From Deltaproteobacteria bacterium (GTDB lineage: Bacteria > Desulfobacterota > Binatia > UBA12015), in assembly GCA_016874795.1 (NCBI GenBank), contig VGTG01000008.1:1-64000 (forward strand): a DNA stretch of 64,000 nt, written 5' to 3'. Of the stretch, positions 12,987 through 47,564 are shown piece by piece (positions within the stretch are counted from its first letter, which is position 1; the number at the start of each line of letters is the position of its first letter). Under the pieces are notes generated by a model that was not told the origin of the DNA, did no database searches, and worked only from the letters and a program-made list of their open reading frames with translations. Both the position numbers and the translations under genes were made by a program.

Positions 12987-12990
12987 CTAG

Positions 12991-13168
12991 CCTGCATTTC
13001 TCACCAGATCACGTCGCGAGGCGGTCGAGAGTGCCGAAGATTCGCGAGCCTCGGACCGGAGGGCGACGCAGGCGTACTTGAACAGTACGTCGAGGAGCCC
13101 GGAGGGAGAAGCTCGCGAAGATTCGGTGCTATCGGCCGCCGCAGTAGGGATCTGGTGAGAAATGCAGG
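12991..13168 (-). mobile_element. 178-bp palindromic MITE-like element, copy 2 (complete)
   Basis: Complete copy, inverted relative to copies 1 and 3 and identical to copy 3 by eye. The 20-bp perfect terminal inverted repeats are CCTGCATTTCTCACCAGATC (12991-13010) and its complement ending at 13168. CTAG flanks both sides (12987-12990 and 13169-13172), consistent with a 4-bp target duplication or a 2-bp TA duplication within CTAG. The interior is itself an imperfect palindrome centred on GTACT-TGAAC-AGTAC (13074-13088), so a transcript could fold end to end. No transposase in the element or window. The right CTAG supplies the TAG stop of the adjacent methyltransferase gene. Confidence 0.85.
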
Positions 13169-13789
13169 CTAGAGCGAGGGCTCGAAGCGCTGCCAGACGA
13201 GAAGCCGGTTGTTCGCCGGCATCGCAGCGTCCTCCAGGAGCCGGAGGTCCGCCGCTCGCGCGAGGCGGTCGACCTCCTCGAAGTCACGGATGCCGCTCGC
13301 GGGGTCCCGCCGGCGGAGGAACGCGTCGAATGCTTCGTTGCTGGGGCTCGTCCAGGTCCCGCCGTAGTTGAAGGGGCCGTAGAGGAGGAATCGCTTTCCG
13401 GGGACGAGGAGCTTCGCCACGCCCCGGACGAAGCGCTCGACCGACGCCCACGACATGATGTGCGTCGTGTTCGCGGAGAAGACGGCGTCGAAGCGCGTCC
13501 CGGGCCAGACGTCGTCGTCGACGTCGAGAGCGATCGGCTCCTCGACGTTCGCGAGCGCTGCGCGTGCGACGCGCGCCCGCACGACGTCGAGCTCCGCGCG
13601 CCGATCGCTCGGCTGCCAGACCGCGGAGGGCAGCTCGCTCGCGAAGAACACGACGTGCTGGCCCGTTCCGCTGCCGATCTCGAGCACGCGGTCCTTCGCC
13701 GCGAGGTGCCGGCGGAGGATCGCGAGGATCGGCCGCTTGTTGTTCTCGCAGGCTTGCGAGAAGGGAAGGTCGTCGAAGCCGTCGCTCAC
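13169..13789 (-). CDS. DUF938 family SAM-dependent methyltransferase
   Basis: The 206-residue product starts near FSQACENNKRPILAIL, the family hallmark, followed by a Rossmann-fold SAM motif VLEIGSGTGQHVVFFA and the acidic DAVFSANTTHIMSW region. Substrate unknown. The GTG start at 13789 overlaps the TGA of the upstream glycosidase-like gene by 4 bp (GTGA); an ATG eight codons further upstream is possible but would sit inside that gene. Its TAG stop (13171-13169) is provided by the CTAG next to repeat copy 2. Co-translation with the glycosidase-like gene is implied, though a functional link is not obvious. Confidence 0.85.
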   Translation of the reverse strand: MSDGFDDLPFSQACENNKRPILAILRRHLAAKDRVLEIGSGTGQHVVFFASELPSAVWQPSDRRAELDVVRARVARAALANVEEPIALDVDDDVWPGTRFDAVFSANTTHIMSWASVERFVRGVAKLLVPGKRFLLYGPFNYGGTWTSPSNEAFDAFLRRRDPASGIRDFEEVDRLARAADLRLLEDAAMPANNRLLVWQRFEPSL

Positions 13790-16700
13790 GGCGCGCTTGG
13801 CGGCTGCGCCCATTCGAGCTCGACCTCGGTCGGGAACGTGCGCAACGTCACCGTCGAGGCGCCCGGCTCGAGCGTGATCTCCTTCCCGTCGGCCGTGACG
13901 CGCGTCAGCGGACCCGGGACCGGCGGTGCGAGGACGATCCCGCCGGCGGGCACGTCGACGTCGCCCGAGAACCACCAATGGAGCCGCGTCGGCCCGTCCC
14001 GTGCGAGACGGTAGTGGAGGATGCCGTCCGCCGTCGGCAGCCGCTCGACGGAGACGCCGGATCCTTCGAGGACCCACGCGGCGGGCAGACCCGCTCCGAG
14101 CACGAGCGCCGAGTCCTCGCTTCGCTCGTACACGAGCATGTTGCGGAGTGCGCTCAGGAACGACGACGCGACCCAGGTGTGCGGCGTGTCGCCGATGAAC
14201 CGTGGCAGCGCCGGGTCCCGCCAGACGATCTCGCCCCACTGGTGCCACTCCGGCGGACGGAGCCCTTCGAGCATCGTCCGCAGGAGCTCGTACGCGTCCT
14301 CTCGGCGGCCCATGTGGATCAGAGCGTCGACGTTGCGGAGCTCGTAGGGCGTGTAGCCCTCGTCTCCGGGTGGGCGCTTGGCGCGCTCGCGCACGTACGT
14401 CAAGTAAAGGTCGAAGGTCTTCGCGAGCGCCTTCGCGGGCAGGTGCGGCAGCTCTCCGCCCGGCGTCACCGCCGCCGCGGTCGAGGTCGCGTCGAAGTCG
14501 CCGAGCTCGACCGAGCCGGGCAGGAAGTCGATCGCGTGCTTCTTCATCGTGCGCTCGAGCGAAGCGTAGAGATCGCGCCGGAAGTCGTCGCGCAGCGCCG
14601 ACCACTTCGCGACGCGCTCGGGATCGCTCACGAGGCCCGCGAGGTACACCGCGTCCTCGAACCCGCGCAGCGTGAAGAAGTCGTCCCAGTAAGAGTGCAC
14701 CGGCCGCGCCGAGTAGCCCTCGTGGCTGATCGATTCGGGAACGAGGCCGAAGAACGGGAGTTTGTCCGGTGCGCGATACTCGGCGGTCATGCGCGTCGCA
14801 CGCAGCGCCTCGAGGAAGTCGACCGCGCGCACGACGCTCGGCCACATCTCCCAGAGAAAGCCGATGTCGCGCGTGTAGCGGACGTACGTCGCGATCCCGT
14901 ACACGAATTGCCCGTTGCTGTCGTTCTCGGGCACGCGATCCGGGCCGCGCTGGTCGATGCAGCACGGGATGCGTCCGTCCGGGAGCTGGTAGGTGGCGAA
15001 CCAGCGCAGGAAGTCGCGCGCCGTCCCCGGATGTCCGTACGCGAGGAGCGCGCTCGAGGTGAGCGTACCGTCGCGGATCCACGAGCGGCCGTACGTGCGC
15101 GAGCCCGGCTGGATCGCCGGCCCGTCGCGATTGATCTCCATGTACGCGAGCGTGCTCTTCGCGATGCGGACGATGCGCTCCCCTTCGGGACCGGGGAGAG
15201 TGATGCCGACACGCCCGAGATCGCGCTCCCACGCACGGCTCTCCTCGGTCAGCTTTGCCGCGAACATCTTCTCCGGCGAACCGCTCGGAGCGAGCGCCTC
15301 GAGCCCCGCCGGCGGATGGAAGGGCACGGCGACGATCACGTCGCGCGCCTCGTGCGGCGCGAGCGCCAGGCGATACTCGAACGCTCCCGAAGCGTAGCCG
15401 AACGGGTCCGAGATCTCGGCGCGCGGCGGCACGCGGCCCTCGCGCAGGTACGTCGAGAAGAGATCCTCCTCGAACGTCGCCGCGCCGAAGCGCTCCGCGG
15501 GCGTCAAGGAGACGACCGGCTGCTTCGCGTCCACCCAGGCCGTCTGCGGCGAGCTCGCGACGAGCGAGCGGATGCGGCTCGCGCCGCCGACGACGTTCAG
15601 CGACTGCCACGGCGGCAGGACCTGGAAGGGCCGCAGCGCGAGGAAGAGGAGCACGTCGCGGTGGGCCTCGTTCAGGTTCTCGACGCGGTAGCGCGCGTAG
15701 AGCACGGACGAGCCCGGCTCGCCGGTCGCGAGCGCCGTCACGTGCAGGCGGATGCCGTCACTCCGCCAGCTCACCGTCGGGATCGGCAGGTAGCCGTACT
15801 CGAGCGAGCGCTCCGTCTGCACCGACTTCCACGTGAGGAGAGTCCCGTCGACGTAGAGGAACGGCTCGATCGAGAACGAGCCGACGTCGACCTCGAGCAT
15901 GCCCTCCTCGTTCAGGAGCGCCTCGCGCGTATCACCGGGGACGCCGACGACGGTCCAGTACGTCTGCTGCTGCGAGAAGTATTTCGGGTACGCGCCGGGC
16001 GGTGCGTCGGCCGCGATCGCCGCGAAGAACTCGTTCGGCGTCGCCGAGAACTCGAGCGGCTTCACGACGATCTCGCGGACACCGTAGCCGTGACCGCGAT
16101 GACTGCCCGTGAGGGCGAGACGAACGCCGCTCGCCTCCGTGTCGTGGAGGTAGATGTAGTTCCGCCGCCCGCTGCCCGACGTCGTGCCGTAGACGCGACG
16201 CCAGGTGCCGTCCTCGTTGATCTCGACGCGATAGGAGGTGGCGTGGTCCTCGGGCTCCCAGTCGATCACGAGGCCGCCGAATTCGGTCGGGCCTCCGAAA
16301 TCGAGCTCGATCCATTGATCGCGGCCGACCGAGCCGCTGCGCCAGGACGTCGCCGGATCGCCGTCCGTCGCCGCTTCGGGCGGGTGGCCCTCGATCGACG
16401 TCGAGGCGATCACGCTCGGACGTGGCGTCTTCAACGCTCGGGAGGGCCGCGGCTCGAAGCGGAGGTTCTCGACCCAGACGGAGCCCTTGCCGCCGCTGCC
16501 GGCGGTGATCGCGATCTCGACGAAGCCGGTGCGCGTGAGCGGCTCGCCGCCCGAGTTCCCCCAAGCGTAGCGCAGGCGCGAGCGACGGAACGTGACGCGC
16601 TCCCAGTCCGGCGGAAACTCGAAATCGCGATCGATCGCCCACCAGACGTTGTCGCCGGTGGGATCGACGAGCTTGAACTCGAGGTTGTTCGGCTTCGCCT

Positions 16701-28364: not shown

Positions 28365-30365
28365 ATGTCCAGGAACGCCCGCCGCCGAACGAGAAAGCAC
28401 CGCAAGGCGATCCTCTCGGCCTGCGCGGCGCTCGCGGCGTGCGCAGGCGTCTCGGCGTGCTCGGGCGGAGGCGACGAGCCACCGTCCTTCACGCGCACCG
28501 AGGAGCGCGAGCCGTGCGACTCCTACGATTCGCAGCGCCAGCCCTTCTTCGGGGACCTACACGTCCACACGATGTACTCGGCGGACGCGCGCATCTTCGG
28601 GACGCAGAACGGCCCGCGCGACGCGTACCGCTTCGCGCGCGGCGAGGAGATCGCGATCTCCGACGAGCAGGAGCAGCCGACCCGCCGGGTCCGGATCGAC
28701 CGGCCGCTCGACTTCGCCGCGGTCACGGACCACTCCGAGTTCCTCGGCGAGGTCGGCATCTGCAGTGATCCCGACTCGCCCGCGTACGACGACGAGATCT
28801 GCCTGCTGCTCCGCGGCGTCGAGGAGCCGGGCGACCGCTTCCTGATCACGGTCAACTGGCTCTTCCCCGCCGGCATCTCGAGTCCGCCTTCTTCGTTGCC
28901 GTTCTGCGAGGAGCTCGGCCTCGACTGCGACGCTTCGGCCGTGTCGGTGTGGGCGCTGACGCGCGACGCCGCCGAGGAAGCCTACGATCGGTCGAGCGCT
29001 TGCCGGTTCACGAGCTTCATCGGCTACGAGCACACCGCGAGCCCGCTCGGGCAGCACTGGCATCGCAACGTCATCTTCCGGAACGAGCGCGTGCCGGTCG
29101 TGCCGTCGAGCGTGCTCGAGACGGAGCGGCGCGGGCATCCGCAGGGGCTCTGGGAAGCGGTCGAGGACGACTGCCTGAACGCGGGCACCGGCTGCGACGC
29201 CGTCATCATCCCACACAACTCGAACCTCTCGGGCGGCGGCCAGTACGTCGATCCGCGCGACGCCGCCGACGCACGACGCCGTCGCGAGCGCGAGCCGCTC
29301 GTCGAGATCTATCAGCACAAGGGCGGCTCCGAGTGCCGCTTCGATCGCCTCGCCGGGCGTGGCGTTTCGACCGAGGACGAGCTCTGCACGTTCGAGCAGC
29401 TCGAGCGCGCCGACGAGACGCCGAAGCCTCCCGGAACCCTGCCGCCGACCGTCGACGAGTATCCCGCGCGCAATCTCGTGCGGAACGTTCTGAAGGACGG
29501 CCTCGCCTTCGAACAGGCCCTCGGCGAGAACCCGTTCCAGATGGGCTTCATCGGCAGCACGGACACGCACGACGCGACCGCGGGCGCCGTCGCGGAGAAG
29601 CTCTGGCCCGGCGCGCAGGGAAACGGCGACGCGACGGCGGATCGGCGCGTCGGCCGAAACCTGCGCGAGAATCCCGGCGGGCTCGCCGTCGTATGGGCGG
29701 AGGAGAACTCGCGCGACGCGATCTTCGAGGCGCTCCGCCGGAGAGAGACCTACGCGACGAGCGGCACGCGGCCGGTCGTGCGCTTCTTCGGCGGCGAGCT
29801 CGATCGCGTCGCGTGCGGGCGCGGCGATCTCGTCGAAGCGGCGTATCGCGACGGCGTGCCGATGGGCGGCGTCCTCGAGGCGGCGAGCGAGAGCCCGCGC
29901 TTCGCCGTGCTCGCGTTCAAGGATCCGGGGACGGCGGAGTCGCCGGGAGCCGATCTGGACCGGATCCAGATCGTCAAGGGATGGGTCGACCCGTCGGGAA
30001 CGACGCACGAGGCGGTGTTCGACGTCGCCTCCGCTTCGTCGCCCGGCGCCCCGGTCGATCCTGCTTCGTGCACACCGAGCGCGGGGGCGAGCGAGCTCTG
30101 CGCCGTCTGGGAGGATCCGACGTTCGATCCGGACGAGCGCGCGTTCTACTACGCGCGCGTGCTCGAGCGCTCGTCGTGTCGCTGGAGCACGCTTCTCTGC
30201 CGCGAGGCGGGCGTCGATCCGTTCTCGAGCGAGTGCGCCTCGCAGGCCGCGGCCGCGGGTGAGCTCTACGACGTCTGCTGCACGGAGACGAGCGCCGAGC
30301 CCTTCTACGATCCGGCGATCCAGGAGCGCGCCTGGACGTCGCCGATCTGGTATCGGCCCGGCTGA
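28365..30365 (+). CDS. DUF3604 (PHP-superfamily) lipoprotein
   Basis: The 666-residue protein has a basic lipoprotein signal (several candidate cysteines, last VSACSG) and the DUF3604 metal-binding pattern: FGDLHVHTMYSADA, FAAVTDHSEFLGE, VIIPHNSN and GFIGSTDTHDATAG. The family is related to PHP metal-dependent phosphoesterases but its activity is not known. The C-terminus is cysteine-rich (SSCRWSTLLCREAG, YDVCCTE), suggesting disulfides in the periplasm. ATG start 32 bp after the nitronate monooxygenase stop; likely the same transcript. Confidence 0.92.
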   Translation: MSRNARRRTRKHRKAILSACAALAACAGVSACSGGGDEPPSFTRTEEREPCDSYDSQRQPFFGDLHVHTMYSADARIFGTQNGPRDAYRFARGEEIAISDEQEQPTRRVRIDRPLDFAAVTDHSEFLGEVGICSDPDSPAYDDEICLLLRGVEEPGDRFLITVNWLFPAGISSPPSSLPFCEELGLDCDASAVSVWALTRDAAEEAYDRSSACRFTSFIGYEHTASPLGQHWHRNVIFRNERVPVVPSSVLETERRGHPQGLWEAVEDDCLNAGTGCDAVIIPHNSNLSGGGQYVDPRDAADARRRREREPLVEIYQHKGGSECRFDRLAGRGVSTEDELCTFEQLERADETPKPPGTLPPTVDEYPARNLVRNVLKDGLAFEQALGENPFQMGFIGSTDTHDATAGAVAEKLWPGAQGNGDATADRRVGRNLRENPGGLAVVWAEENSRDAIFEALRRRETYATSGTRPVVRFFGGELDRVACGRGDLVEAAYRDGVPMGGVLEAASESPRFAVLAFKDPGTAESPGADLDRIQIVKGWVDPSGTTHEAVFDVASASSPGAPVDPASCTPSAGASELCAVWEDPTFDPDERAFYYARVLERSSCRWSTLLCREAGVDPFSSECASQAAAAGELYDVCCTETSAEPFYDPAIQERAWTSPIWYRPG

Positions 30366-30426
30366 ACGAGCAAAGCGTCGAGAGACGTCGACCGCGCGCA
30401 CGTGCGGGCGCGAGGAGGAGTCGGCG

Positions 30427-30726
30427 ATGCTCTTCATGCGCCAGGGACGGCCGAAGGCCGGCGTATCGGTGGAGGACCAGGAGCGTGCGGTGCGGCTCTT
30501 CCAGAGCTGGAAGCCGCCCGCGGATCTGAAGATCCAGGCCCACGATGCGTCTGCGAACGGCGGCGACTACGTGATCGTCGAGACCGATTCGGTGCCGGCG
30601 TTGATCGAGGCGATCCAGGTGTGGGCGCCGATGCTCGCGTACGAGGTGACGCCGATCGTCCCGGTCGAGGCAGGCGTGACCGGCCTCGTGCGCGCGTGCG
30701 AGACACGCGCGCAGCTCCTGGCCTAG
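30427..30726 (+). CDS. DUF3303 family protein
   Basis: The 99-residue protein starts MLFMRQGRPKAGVS and contains DYVIVETDSVPALIEAIQVWAP, matching the small DUF3303 (dimeric alpha/beta barrel-like) proteins, which are of unknown function. ATG is preceded by GGAGGAG. Its TAG stop (30724-30726) is the CTAG that borders repeat copy 3. It follows the DUF3604 gene by 61 bp on the same strand. Confidence 0.8.
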   Translation: MLFMRQGRPKAGVSVEDQERAVRLFQSWKPPADLKIQAHDASANGGDYVIVETDSVPALIEAIQVWAPMLAYEVTPIVPVEAGVTGLVRACETRAQLLA

Positions 30727-30904
30727 CCTGCATTTCTCACCAGATCCCTACTGCGGCGGCCGATAGCACCGAATCTTCGCGAGCTTCTCCCTCCGGGCTC
30801 CTCGACGTACTGTTCAAGTACGCCTGCGTCGCCCTCCGGTCCGAGGCTCGCGAATCTTCGGCACTCTCGACCGCCTCGCGACGTGATCTGGTGAGAAATG
30901 CAGG
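30727..30904 (+). mobile_element. 178-bp palindromic MITE-like element, copy 3 (complete)
   Basis: Identical by eye to copy 2 (opposite orientation) and to the 120 bp of copy 1. Terminal inverted repeats are at 30727-30746 and 30885-30904; CTAG lies at 30723-30726 and 30905-30908. The left CTAG is the stop region of the DUF3303 gene. The right end abuts the degraded ion-channel gene, whose last frame reads into the element and stops at 30814. Confidence 0.85.
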
Positions 30905-31615
30905 CTAGCGCGTCTCCCGAATCGAAGCGGTCCGCTCTTCGGGCGCGGCGCGCCGCCGGATTCGGCGTCGCCGCCGCCCGCAGCGATCTGCCGAGACAAG
31001 CGATCGATGCTCTCGGAGAGCACCTCCACCTCGCGACGGAGGCCGCGGAGCTCCACGCGAAGCTCCTGGTCGAGCCGCTTGATCACCGCGTGCGTCTCCT
31101 CGTCGGACTCGTCGATCTTCTGCCGCGACAGCCACGCTGCGATCTGTGCGGTGAGGAGGCGCGGTCACGAAGAGGACCGCGAAGGCCTCCGGAGAAAGGA
31201 TGCGCCGCAGGCCCGTGCCGGCGCGCTGCGCGAGCACGAGGAGCCGCACCAAACGAACGACCGCCATGATGCGCGCCATCCGCCCGAGGTTCGTGAGGCG
31301 CACGAGGCGCAGCTCGCTCAGCAGCGCGGGCATGGCCGGGAACGTGAGCGCGAGGATCGCGAGGTCGAGCCAGGCGGAGGATTTTCGTAGCCAGCCGCGT
31401 CCGAAGGCGACCGCCTTCGTCGCCGCGTCCACGGCGAAGATCGACCAGATCGCCCAGTCCGCGATGCCTTCCCCCGGAACCCAGCTCGGGCTCTCGATGC
31501 TCAGGTTCGTCAGCACCACCGGGATCAGAGCGAGCGCCGACACGGTGGCTGCGACATCGGTTGCGGGCTCGAACGCCAGCGCAGCTTCTCTCCGGCTCTT
31601 CCAGGGCCGACGCAT
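30905..31615 (-). pseudogene. Ion channel gene with pore region lost and frame broken
   Basis: The first frame (ATG at 31615, about 150 codons) encodes a voltage-sensor-like four-helix region: [45 protein letters not shown] and the basic S4-like MARIMAVVRLVRLLVLAQR, then SPEAFAVLFVTA. Around 31150-31168 the frame breaks. Another frame then gives LLTAQIAAWLSRQKIDESDE and a long coiled coil (VIKRLDQELRVELRGLRREV), which is the post-pore helix and C-terminal tail expected of a two-domain cation channel. The pore helix and a TVGYG-type filter are absent, so a block of perhaps 80-100 codons has been deleted, leaving a frameshift. Non-functional unless an assembly error. Confidence 0.75.
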
Positions 31616-33469: not shown

Positions 33470-33474
33470 TTCAA

Positions 33475-33660
33475 GCGAGGGGGCGCTGCCCCCTCGCCGG
33501 AGCTGCAGCAAAGCTGCAGCTCCTCCACGGTTGATCGCAAGCGAGGAGGCGCTGCCCCCTCGCCGGAGCTGCAGCAAAGCTGCAGCTCCTCCACGGTTGA
33601 TCGCAAGCGAGGAGGCGCTGCCCCCTCGCCGGAGCTGCAGCAAAGCTGCAGCTCCTCCAC
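33475..33660. repeat. 66-bp tandem repeat, 2.8 copies, two hairpins per unit
   Basis: Units begin at 33475, 33541 and 33607 (the last cut at 33660). Each unit carries hairpin A, GCGAGGGGGC-GCT-GCCCCCTCGC in unit 1 (one mismatch in units 2 and 3), and hairpin B, GGAGCTGCAGC-AAA-GCTGCAGCTCC, a perfect 11-bp stem. The array starts 5 bp after the kinase stop, so it may also act as a terminator. No spacer diversity, so not CRISPR. Confidence 0.9.
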
Positions 33661-33771
33661 TCCCCCGCTCGCCCTCCGCTCGGCCGCGCGCTTCGCGCGC
33701 GGAGGGTCGCGTTCCTCGGAGCGCGGGGCTGGTGCGGTCATGAGGCTGATCCTCCTGTCGTCTATTGGCGC
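33661..33771. other. Gap with a strong GC hairpin before the GT-C gene
   Basis: Completes the 302-bp gene-free stretch after the histidine kinase. CCGCGCGC-TTC-GCGCGCGG (33684-33702) is a perfect 8-bp stem. The remaining ~70 bp up to the GTG at 33772 should contain the promoter for the glycosyltransferase, but I see no convincing -35/-10 pair. Confidence 0.4.
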
Positions 33772-46201: not shown

Positions 46202-46927
46202 GTGAGACGCGATCATCGACCCTATTGGATGGTGCGGGCTTCGCTCGCTCTGGAGCGTGCGTACACGCGCCATTTCCTTCGCCCGCAGCTCGAGCATCTC
46301 GGCGAGGGAGCGACGGTGCGGAAGCCGTGGTACGTGCGCCTCGACGGCGGCGACATCCGCATCGGCCGCTTCACGCAGATCGTCGGCGCGTGGGGACGCC
46401 CCGTGGAGATCTGCACGTTCTCGAACGGCGAGCGGAGCGGTGAGATCCGCATCGGCGATCACTGCCTGATCTCGCCGGGTGCGCGCATCTCGGCGGCAAC
46501 GCGGATCGAGATCGGGGACGACTCGATGCTCGCCGCGGGCGTCTACTTGACGGACGCCGATTGGCACGACGTACACGACCGCACGCGCTCGCCCGGTCGC
46601 TCGGCGCCGATCGTGCTCGAGCGGAACGTCTGGATCGGCGACGGCGTGATCGTCTGCAAGGGTGTGCGGATCGGCGAGAACAGCGTCATCGGCGCGGGCT
46701 CGGTCGTCGTCGGCGACGTCGCTCCGAACGCGATCGCCGCCGGCAATCCGGCGCGCGTCGTGCGCGAGCTGCAGGCCGACGAGCGCCTCGTCACGCGCGC
46801 GACGCTCTTCCGCGAGACGCCGCGCGAGATGGAAGCGCGAAACGCGTTCCTCCGCTTCTACGTCCTCTGCGGCAACACCTTCGCCGGCTGGCTCCGCGCC
46901 CGCCTCTTCCCCCGCACGACCGACTAG
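46202..46927 (+). CDS. Hexapeptide-repeat (left-handed beta-helix) acyltransferase
   Basis: The 241-residue product has repeated hexapeptides forming a left-handed beta-helix (IRIGDHCLISPGARISAA, VWIGDGVIVCKGVRIGENSV, VIGAGSVVVGDV) and the terminal IAAGNPARVV of CatB/maa-type acetyltransferases, with a histidine in DADWHDVHDR as catalytic candidate. GTG start at 46202 (RRDHRPYW) gives the N-terminus I associate with this subgroup. Acceptor unknown, possibly a surface polysaccharide. Its TAG starts the long inverted repeat at 46927. Confidence 0.87.
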   Translation: MRRDHRPYWMVRASLALERAYTRHFLRPQLEHLGEGATVRKPWYVRLDGGDIRIGRFTQIVGAWGRPVEICTFSNGERSGEIRIGDHCLISPGARISAATRIEIGDDSMLAAGVYLTDADWHDVHDRTRSPGRSAPIVLERNVWIGDGVIVCKGVRIGENSVIGAGSVVVGDVAPNAIAAGNPARVVRELQADERLVTRATLFRETPREMEARNAFLRFYVLCGNTFAGWLRARLFPRTTD

Positions 46928-47009
46928 GGGGTCCGGTTCGTTACGCCGTATCTGCACCCAGGCTCGAATTGAGCCTGGGTGCAGATACGGCGTAACGAAC
47001 CGGACCCCC
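46927..47009. repeat. Perfect 39-bp inverted repeat with 5-bp loop
   Basis: Left arm 46927-46965, loop GAATT, right arm 46971-47009, no mismatch seen. It begins GGGGGTCCGGTTCGTTACGC and occupies the whole space between the stops of two convergent genes, touching the last base of one stop and ending one base before the other. It would make an extremely stable hairpin in both transcripts, so it can act as a bidirectional terminator. The arms look more like a mobile palindromic repeat than an evolved terminator; no T-tract. Confidence 0.92.
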
Positions 47010-47564
47010 TCAACTCATGTTGCGGACGAGGCGGTCGCCTTGGGCGGGCTCGACCTCGATGCCGGTCACCTCCATCACGCGCGCCATCAGCATGTAGAAG
47101 CCGATCGCGATCGTCAGCTCGACGACCTCGCGCGACGAAAGATGCTGCTCGAGCGCCTGCAGTGCCTGGTCGGACGGCCGCACGTCCTTCACGACCTCGT
47201 CCGTGAAGGTGAGAACGGCGCGCTCCTTTCCGTCGAAGCACGCGGCGGAGACGTCGCCGCGCTCGAGCGCGTCCACCTGCGCCTGCGTGCAACCCGTCTG
47301 CAGCGCGATCGGCACGTGCTGCACCCACTCGTACGGTGCCTTGGACAGATGGGCGACGCGGAGGATCGCGAGCTCGCGGAGGTTTCCCGCGAGGTCCTGG
47401 CGAGCGAGGATCGTGCCGCCGAGGCGCAGGAGCGGCTCGACGTTCCGCTCCGCGTGGAGCAGGATCCGGAAGACGTTCAGCTTGATCGGCAGGCCTTCCC
47501 AGATCTTGCGGATCCGCTCGTGCGCCTCGTCGAGATCGGGATACGGAATGCGCGGCATGGGCAC
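47010..47564 (-). CDS. Carboxymuconolactone decarboxylase (AhpD-like) family protein
   Basis: The 184-residue all-helical protein has the CMD/AhpD core: LRELAILRVAHLSKAPYEW followed by VQHVPIALQTGCTQAQVDAL and RAVLTFTDEVVKD. The CXXC of AhpD peroxidases is missing (only one cysteine at the GCT position), so it belongs to the decarboxylase/halidase-like branch, of unknown reaction. GTG at 47564 or ATG two codons later. It is divergent from the alcohol dehydrogenase gene. Confidence 0.85.
   Translation of the reverse strand: MPMPRIPYPDLDEAHERIRKIWEGLPIKLNVFRILLHAERNVEPLLRLGGTILARQDLAGNLRELAILRVAHLSKAPYEWVQHVPIALQTGCTQAQVDALERGDVSAACFDGKERAVLTFTDEVVKDVRPSDQALQALEQHLSSREVVELTIAIGFYMLMARVMEVTGIEVEPAQGDRLVRNMS

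Follow-up and report, generated by a model that had tools for sequence, protein, structure and literature searches.

A 178-bp palindromic repeat flanked by CTAG is probably a non-autonomous MITE of the IS1380 group

A 178-bp palindromic element, which occurs in identical copies in the 64,000-nucleotide stretch of DNA analysed here (the window) and elsewhere in the same draft genome, is very probably a non-autonomous MITE that belongs to the IS1380 / bacterial piggyBac-like group and is moved by a DDE transposase of the IS1380 family (PF13701). This assignment was made from sequence comparison. The element is present as many dispersed near-identical copies with ends that match those of autonomous insertion sequences in other genomes (both ends in three cases, L278, L280 and L290, and one end in a fourth, L279), and the transposases of these insertion sequences match PF13701, with a 4-bp target duplication at L280/L290.

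Copies of the element in the window and the host genome

Two complete copies lie in the window in opposite orientations, at 12991-13168 (plus strand) and 30727-30904 (minus strand), with 0 mismatches over 178 bp. Positions 1-120 repeat the final 120 bp of the copy at 30727. Contig C8 begins at position 1, so that a third copy (minus strand), followed by CTAG at 121-124, is cut there by the contig end. The original prediction of identical copies at these three sites, with 20-bp perfect terminal inverted repeats and CTAG borders, was therefore borne out, positions 1-120 being a truncated copy. The terminal repeats are CCTGCATTTCTCACCAGATC, and the CTAG on each side (12987-12990 and 13169-13172 for copy 1, 30723-30726 and 30905-30908 for copy 2) is the limit of the sequence shared by the window copies. 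Within copy 1, the plus strand carries in arm 1 the subterminal motif CGTCGCGAGG (13012-13021), a largely unpaired bubble of the hairpin, which recurs in elements of Gammaproteobacteria, Nitrospira, Acidobacteria and M3-44 (alignments A1 and A2). Facing this bubble is the subterminal motif of arm 2, GCAGTAGG (approximately 13141-13148), and between them lies the central hairpin CAGGCGTACTTGAACAGTACGTCGAG (approximately 13071-13096), which is conserved in several phyla. As in MITEs generally, the element is short (below about 600 bp), has terminal repeats and contains no transposase gene, for which it is too short. Rfam gave no match in the window, and the plasmid and phage collections contained no match to the 178-bp element; plasmid matches to a 30-base end were rejected as chance or a half-element, and the end was also seen in five stretches of viral contigs, which lay mostly at contig edges or matched within a phage gene by chance. 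The window also contains a 66-bp tandem repeat of three units (33472-33669), and units related to these occur on contigs C73, C109 and C112.

We then counted the ends throughout the host genome (6.27 Mb, 360 contigs). Exact 15-bp ends numbered 239 (120 + 119), as compared with 0 for the reversed control, and 247 ends were counted with CTAG and up to 3 mismatches. A full-length search found at least 40 identical copies. Among the 47 distinct complete copies that were read, all with differing flanks, 39 were identical to the reference, four had one base changed and four had more. These counts leave no room for a single-copy element, and the different flanks exclude a contig-joining artefact, the two findings that would have undone the original prediction. 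The 1.25 Mb of the host genome that was read contains 15 complete copies and 15 ends at contig ends, which, when scaled up, suggests a total of roughly 120-165 insertions. Since many contigs of the draft genome terminate in the element, it accounts for breaks in such assemblies.

The exact ends were absent from three congeners and ten family members, and from all but one of the remaining genomes of the class; the exception (G051) has one isolated match, at the start of a gene, that is due to chance. Empty orthologous sites were not alignable in the congeners, where the intergenic DNA is too diverged. Because 39 of the 47 copies are identical and the ends are lacking in the three congeners and ten family members, the element has amplified in a recent burst, in agreement with the recent movement that had been proposed for it.

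IS1380 transposases with the same ends

When public genomes were scanned with a 19-base end, 82 stretches were returned, for the most part short palindromic elements, from Bryobacterales (Acidobacteria), Verrucomicrobia, Gammaproteobacteria, Nitrospira, Eisenbacteria, Planctomycetota, Thermoanaerobaculia and others. The open reading frames near the ends in these 82 loci were ordinary genes or belonged to no family. The number of ends reached 580 in one Bryobacterales genome and 286 and 221 in two gammaproteobacteria, and all controls gave 0. Some of the elements fall into a second, shorter size class, comprising verrucomicrobial 73-bp miniature relatives, CTAGCCTGCATTTCTCACC..GCATGCAGGCTAG (L062 4290, L097 1866, L135 2352 and 6924), and 42-71-bp solo hairpins in other genomes. 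In Pseudoalteromonas piscicida (L183 1112-4914), a cassette is repeated in an array with a period of about 1.89 kb, with one half-element, CTAGCCTACAYTTCTCACC, per period.

A search of the end-bearing genomes with PF13701 (IS1380) gave matches in 12 of 24, and most of the full-length PF13701 genes carry the same ends as the 178-bp element. The five best matches scored 489 to 522 bits (cut-off 34.7; E-values 1e-147 to 1e-157). Other bacteria thus contain IS1380-family elements with the terminal inverted repeat CCYGCATTTCTCACC. Both ends were found in a Planctomycetota element (L278; CTAG followed by CCCGCATTTCTCACC, and TGTGAGAAATGCGGG) and in two elements of one Bryobacterales genome (L280 and L290; CCCGCATTTCTCACC and CCTGCATTTCTCACC, with GGTGAGATATCCGGG), and the L290 end CCTGCATTTCTCACCAG is identical over 17 bp. 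One end, GGTGAGAAATGCGGG followed by CTAA, was found in an Eisenbacteria element (L279), and a Reyranella element (L281) has a more diverged end pair inside CTAG..CTAG. The same ends were not found at two weaker PF13701 matches from Thermoanaerobaculia (L284 and L292). The transposases align well, with conserved D-DATD, R(G/A)DSGF and ENRIKE blocks (alignment A3). A subterminal CGCGA, 8-9 nt inside the end, is common to the downstream end of L280/L290, to arm 1 of the MITE and to a second element of the host genome (element II, described below). The link to an IS1380 helper was not seen in every element-rich genome, since some of these had no PF13701 match, such as the gammaproteobacterium G108 with its 286 ends.

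The L280 and L290 elements share 97% identity over 1.73 kb but are bordered by CTAA..CTAA and CTAG..CTAG, respectively, which shows that IS1380 elements with these ends make a 4-bp YTAR duplication. The CTAG borders of the 178-bp element are therefore best read as the duplicated target rather than as element sequence. In the host, CTAG is self-complementary, so that a 4-bp duplication there is indistinguishable from a 2-bp TA duplication. A YTAR target fits the behaviour of piggyBac, which duplicates TTAA and rarely TTAG or CTAA, and to which, in its eukaryotic form, IS1380 serves as outgroup, according to the passages cited (PMC10813416).

The original prediction had placed a transposase acting on these ends elsewhere in the same genome. 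Such enzymes do exist in other bacteria, as described above. In the host draft genome, a search that left out contigs of 1.5-1.9 kb revealed no intact IS1380 transposase, but a dead IS1380 fragment and, at three contig ends, a probable helper. The fragment, on C153, appears to belong to another subgroup and lacks these ends. The three contigs C53, C70 and C230 all stop at the same base inside element II, which begins in C70 and C230 with CCTGCATTTCTCACCAGGGGTAACGCGAAGG, the same 15-bp end; its CGCGA is placed 8 nt inwards, like that of the L280 downstream end, and C53 deviates in the outermost bases. No protein family was matched by short translations of element II. Metagenome bins commonly lose repeats whose coverage is raised. 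Because of this loss, and because contigs of 1.5-1.9 kb lay outside the search, we consider element II to be probably the helper, left unbinned.

The IS1380 DDE transposase encoded by such a helper would bind the shared 15-20-bp ends, cut the element out and insert it at YTAR, here almost always CTAG, duplicating the 4 bp. We infer that an enzyme of this kind, probably that of element II, moved the 178-bp element in the host, by a cut-and-paste DDE route for both excision and insertion.

Hairpin fold, target sites and alternative readings

The interior of the element had been described as folding back on itself, and the 178-bp strand does form a single long hairpin (-127.9 kcal/mol, z -15.4), which none of the shuffles equalled. 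The palindrome is not letter-perfect: without gaps, 40% of the positions are self-complementary, and small conserved bulges interrupt the stem. The host element can be aligned, over the whole length, with ~184-bp elements of Gammaproteobacteria (L107, L117) and Acidobacteria (L081, L130, Bryobacterales). In this cross-phylum alignment, using the host-element structure, both sides have changed in 38 of 72 pairs, and 82% of the cells pair, as compared with 71% after shuffling and 28-43% after a shift of the partner by 1-3 columns; none of 500 shuffles reaches any of the pairing measures, evidence that is strong but not independent, as the structure was derived from one row of the alignment and 6 of its 11 rows are Bryobacterales. 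Two blocks persist, the bubble CGTCGCGAG facing GCAGTAG, which is absent from Bryobacterales, and the central hairpin GGCGTA..TACGTYGAG. Paired changes would also arise from arm-to-arm copying, by which an asymmetric bubble should, however, be lost, and for this reason we lean towards selection on the fold, which would give the interior of the hairpin a function. A tentative extension, which we regard as somewhat less likely than its opposite, is that the ~184-bp hairpins form a coherent and old lineage of their own, similar to SINEs, that moves between phyla and parasitises any IS1380 helper it meets. The hairpin interior (the central GGCGTA..TACGTYGAG hairpin and the CGTCGCGAG/GCAGTAG bubble) might then be selected for recognition of the folded strand, as extruded DNA or RNA, either in the course of transposition or by the host. 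As the shape of this transposon hairpin is maintained in different phyla through paired changes, a role of the fold in transposition or RNA processing is testable.

CTAG was present on both sides of 45 of the 47 complete copies, and the sequence beyond it showed no conservation. The tetranucleotide is scarce in the host: 251 occurrences were observed in 1.25 Mb, as compared with about 1010 expected from trinucleotides. In this stretch 208 sites are free and 28 occupied, so that about 12% of the sites carry the element. We compared occupied and free sites with a single gene caller, our own simple codon model, so that the following fractions are approximate. The CTAG supplied the stop codon of a flanking gene at 22 of 45 occupied and 50 of 187 free sites (odds ratio 2.6, p = 0.007); 24 of 43 occupied sites lie between convergent genes, as compared with 30 of 157 free ones (odds ratio 5.3, p = 9e-6), and 2 of 45 lie within genes, as compared with 30 of 187 (p = 0.05). 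The stop-codon and convergence biases hold at three score thresholds of the gene caller. The window provides examples. The right-hand CTAG of copy 1 (13169-13172) contains the final TAG of an 813-aa minus-strand ORF (13169-15610), and at copy 2 a 155-aa plus-strand ORF (30259-30726) and a convergent 236-aa minus-strand ORF (30905-31615) end with the TAG within the left-hand and right-hand CTAG, respectively. The 30727 copy is thus among the few cases in which both convergent genes end in CTAG, one per side. Because CTAG reads TAG on both strands and the target is duplicated, each flanking gene keeps its stop. In this GC-rich genome CTAG is rare outside intergenic DNA and stop codons, so that many insertions hit a stop codon; the target duplication would return the stop to each flanking gene and make the insertion nearly harmless, by which more than 100 copies could be reached. 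The biases may reflect either the choice of the enzyme or the survival of harmless insertions.

These features have a counterpart in REPIN-like hairpins, which a RAYT (a Y1/HUH tyrosine transposase) recognises as single-stranded DNA and moves: the whole 178-bp element is a hairpin with conserved bubbles, its flanking TAG overlaps stops and convergent positions are preferred, as for REPs in the passages cited (PMC3733652), and the host genome has 13 Y1 genes. Such an origin is nevertheless improbable here, as none of the 13 Y1 loci is flanked on both sides by ends of the element, which is not found near Y1 genes beyond chance (one contig-end copy lies near one gene), and as a different repeat, with arms AGGGGGTCCGGTTCGTTACG, lies on both sides of a Y1 gene on C66. 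Long perfect terminal repeats, a 4-bp target duplication and identical ends on IS1380 are all features of a DDE system. The other repeat is a perfect hairpin with 40-nt arms and a 5-nt loop, found in the window at 46926-47010 in a copy that overlaps a CTAG; about 25 occurrences of its arms were counted in 1.25 Mb of the host genome, and two of them flank the Y1 (RAYT) gene at 15174-15518 of C66, in what looks, from sequence, like a REPIN/RAYT pair. About a dozen similar Y1/HUH genes, mostly of 230-310 aa, are scattered through the host genome (L166-L176).

The IS630, IS5/IS427 and IS701 families also prefer CTAG or TA, and a MITE of one of these DDE families could share the target seen here. 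We think this very unlikely, considering that IS1380 genes bear these very ends, and that a search of the host genome covering DDE_3 (IS630) and DDE_Tnp_1 found no match to the former and a single gene of the latter, with different ends. Equally unlikely is that gene conversion or selection for a host function (e.g., a bidirectional terminator or an RNA processing hairpin between convergent genes), rather than recent transposition, keeps the copies alike: the preference for convergent gene pairs and the paired changes that keep the hairpin across phyla would suit it, but the absence from congeners, flanks that differ at every copy, CTAG on each side and the filling of ~12% of CTAG sites speak for a recent burst, and a host function may still have been added to the element. 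Taken together, the evidence favours the IS1380-mobilised MITE.

Comparison with known systems

MITEs are a known kind of element. In the literature searched (titles, abstracts and selected passages, with ISfinder outside the scope), we did not find the IS1380 assignment, the landing on CTAG and stop codons or the cross-phylum hairpin architecture described, and a search of it with the end sequence returned nothing relevant. Within that literature, the element would therefore represent an undescribed and very abundant class of bacterial repeat, which can be linked with one definite family of enzymes, IS1380, whose members are bacterial relatives of piggyBac. It also suggests a simple route to harmless parasitism, to land on CTAG and return the stop codon.

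With the IS1380 family (PF13701), the element shares the ends CCYGCATTTCTCACC, the 4-bp YTAR duplication and the subterminal CGCGA; unlike that family, it has no transposase gene, is 178 bp long, folds back over nearly its whole length and uses CTAG almost exclusively in the host. It resembles the bacterial MITEs ERIC, RUP, NEMIS/Correia and YAPL in its size range (100-200 bp), terminal inverted repeats, long stem-loop, many intergenic copies and lack of a transposase (PMC2229807). In the passages cited, these have mostly a TA target motif and are described from particular genera (PMC2229807), whereas the 178-bp element appears to be part of the IS1380 group, and several phyla contain relatives of it with the ~184-bp architecture. 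MITEPye1 of Paracoccus yeei is likewise non-autonomous and palindromic, with IS-like ends and direct repeats, but is attributed to IS1182 and is present, as far as the cited text goes, in 1-3 copies per chromosome (PMC11578231). REP and REPIN sequences with their RAYTs are also palindromic, lie between convergent genes and often have a terminal TAG that is the stop of the neighbouring gene (PMC3733652; for REPINs, PMC3116915). They differ, according to the same passages, in having a GTAG or CGTC tag on one side, units of 20-40 bp, no target duplication and an HUH enzyme (PMC3733652; PMC3116915), and the host genome contains a separate REPIN-like family beside the 178-bp element.
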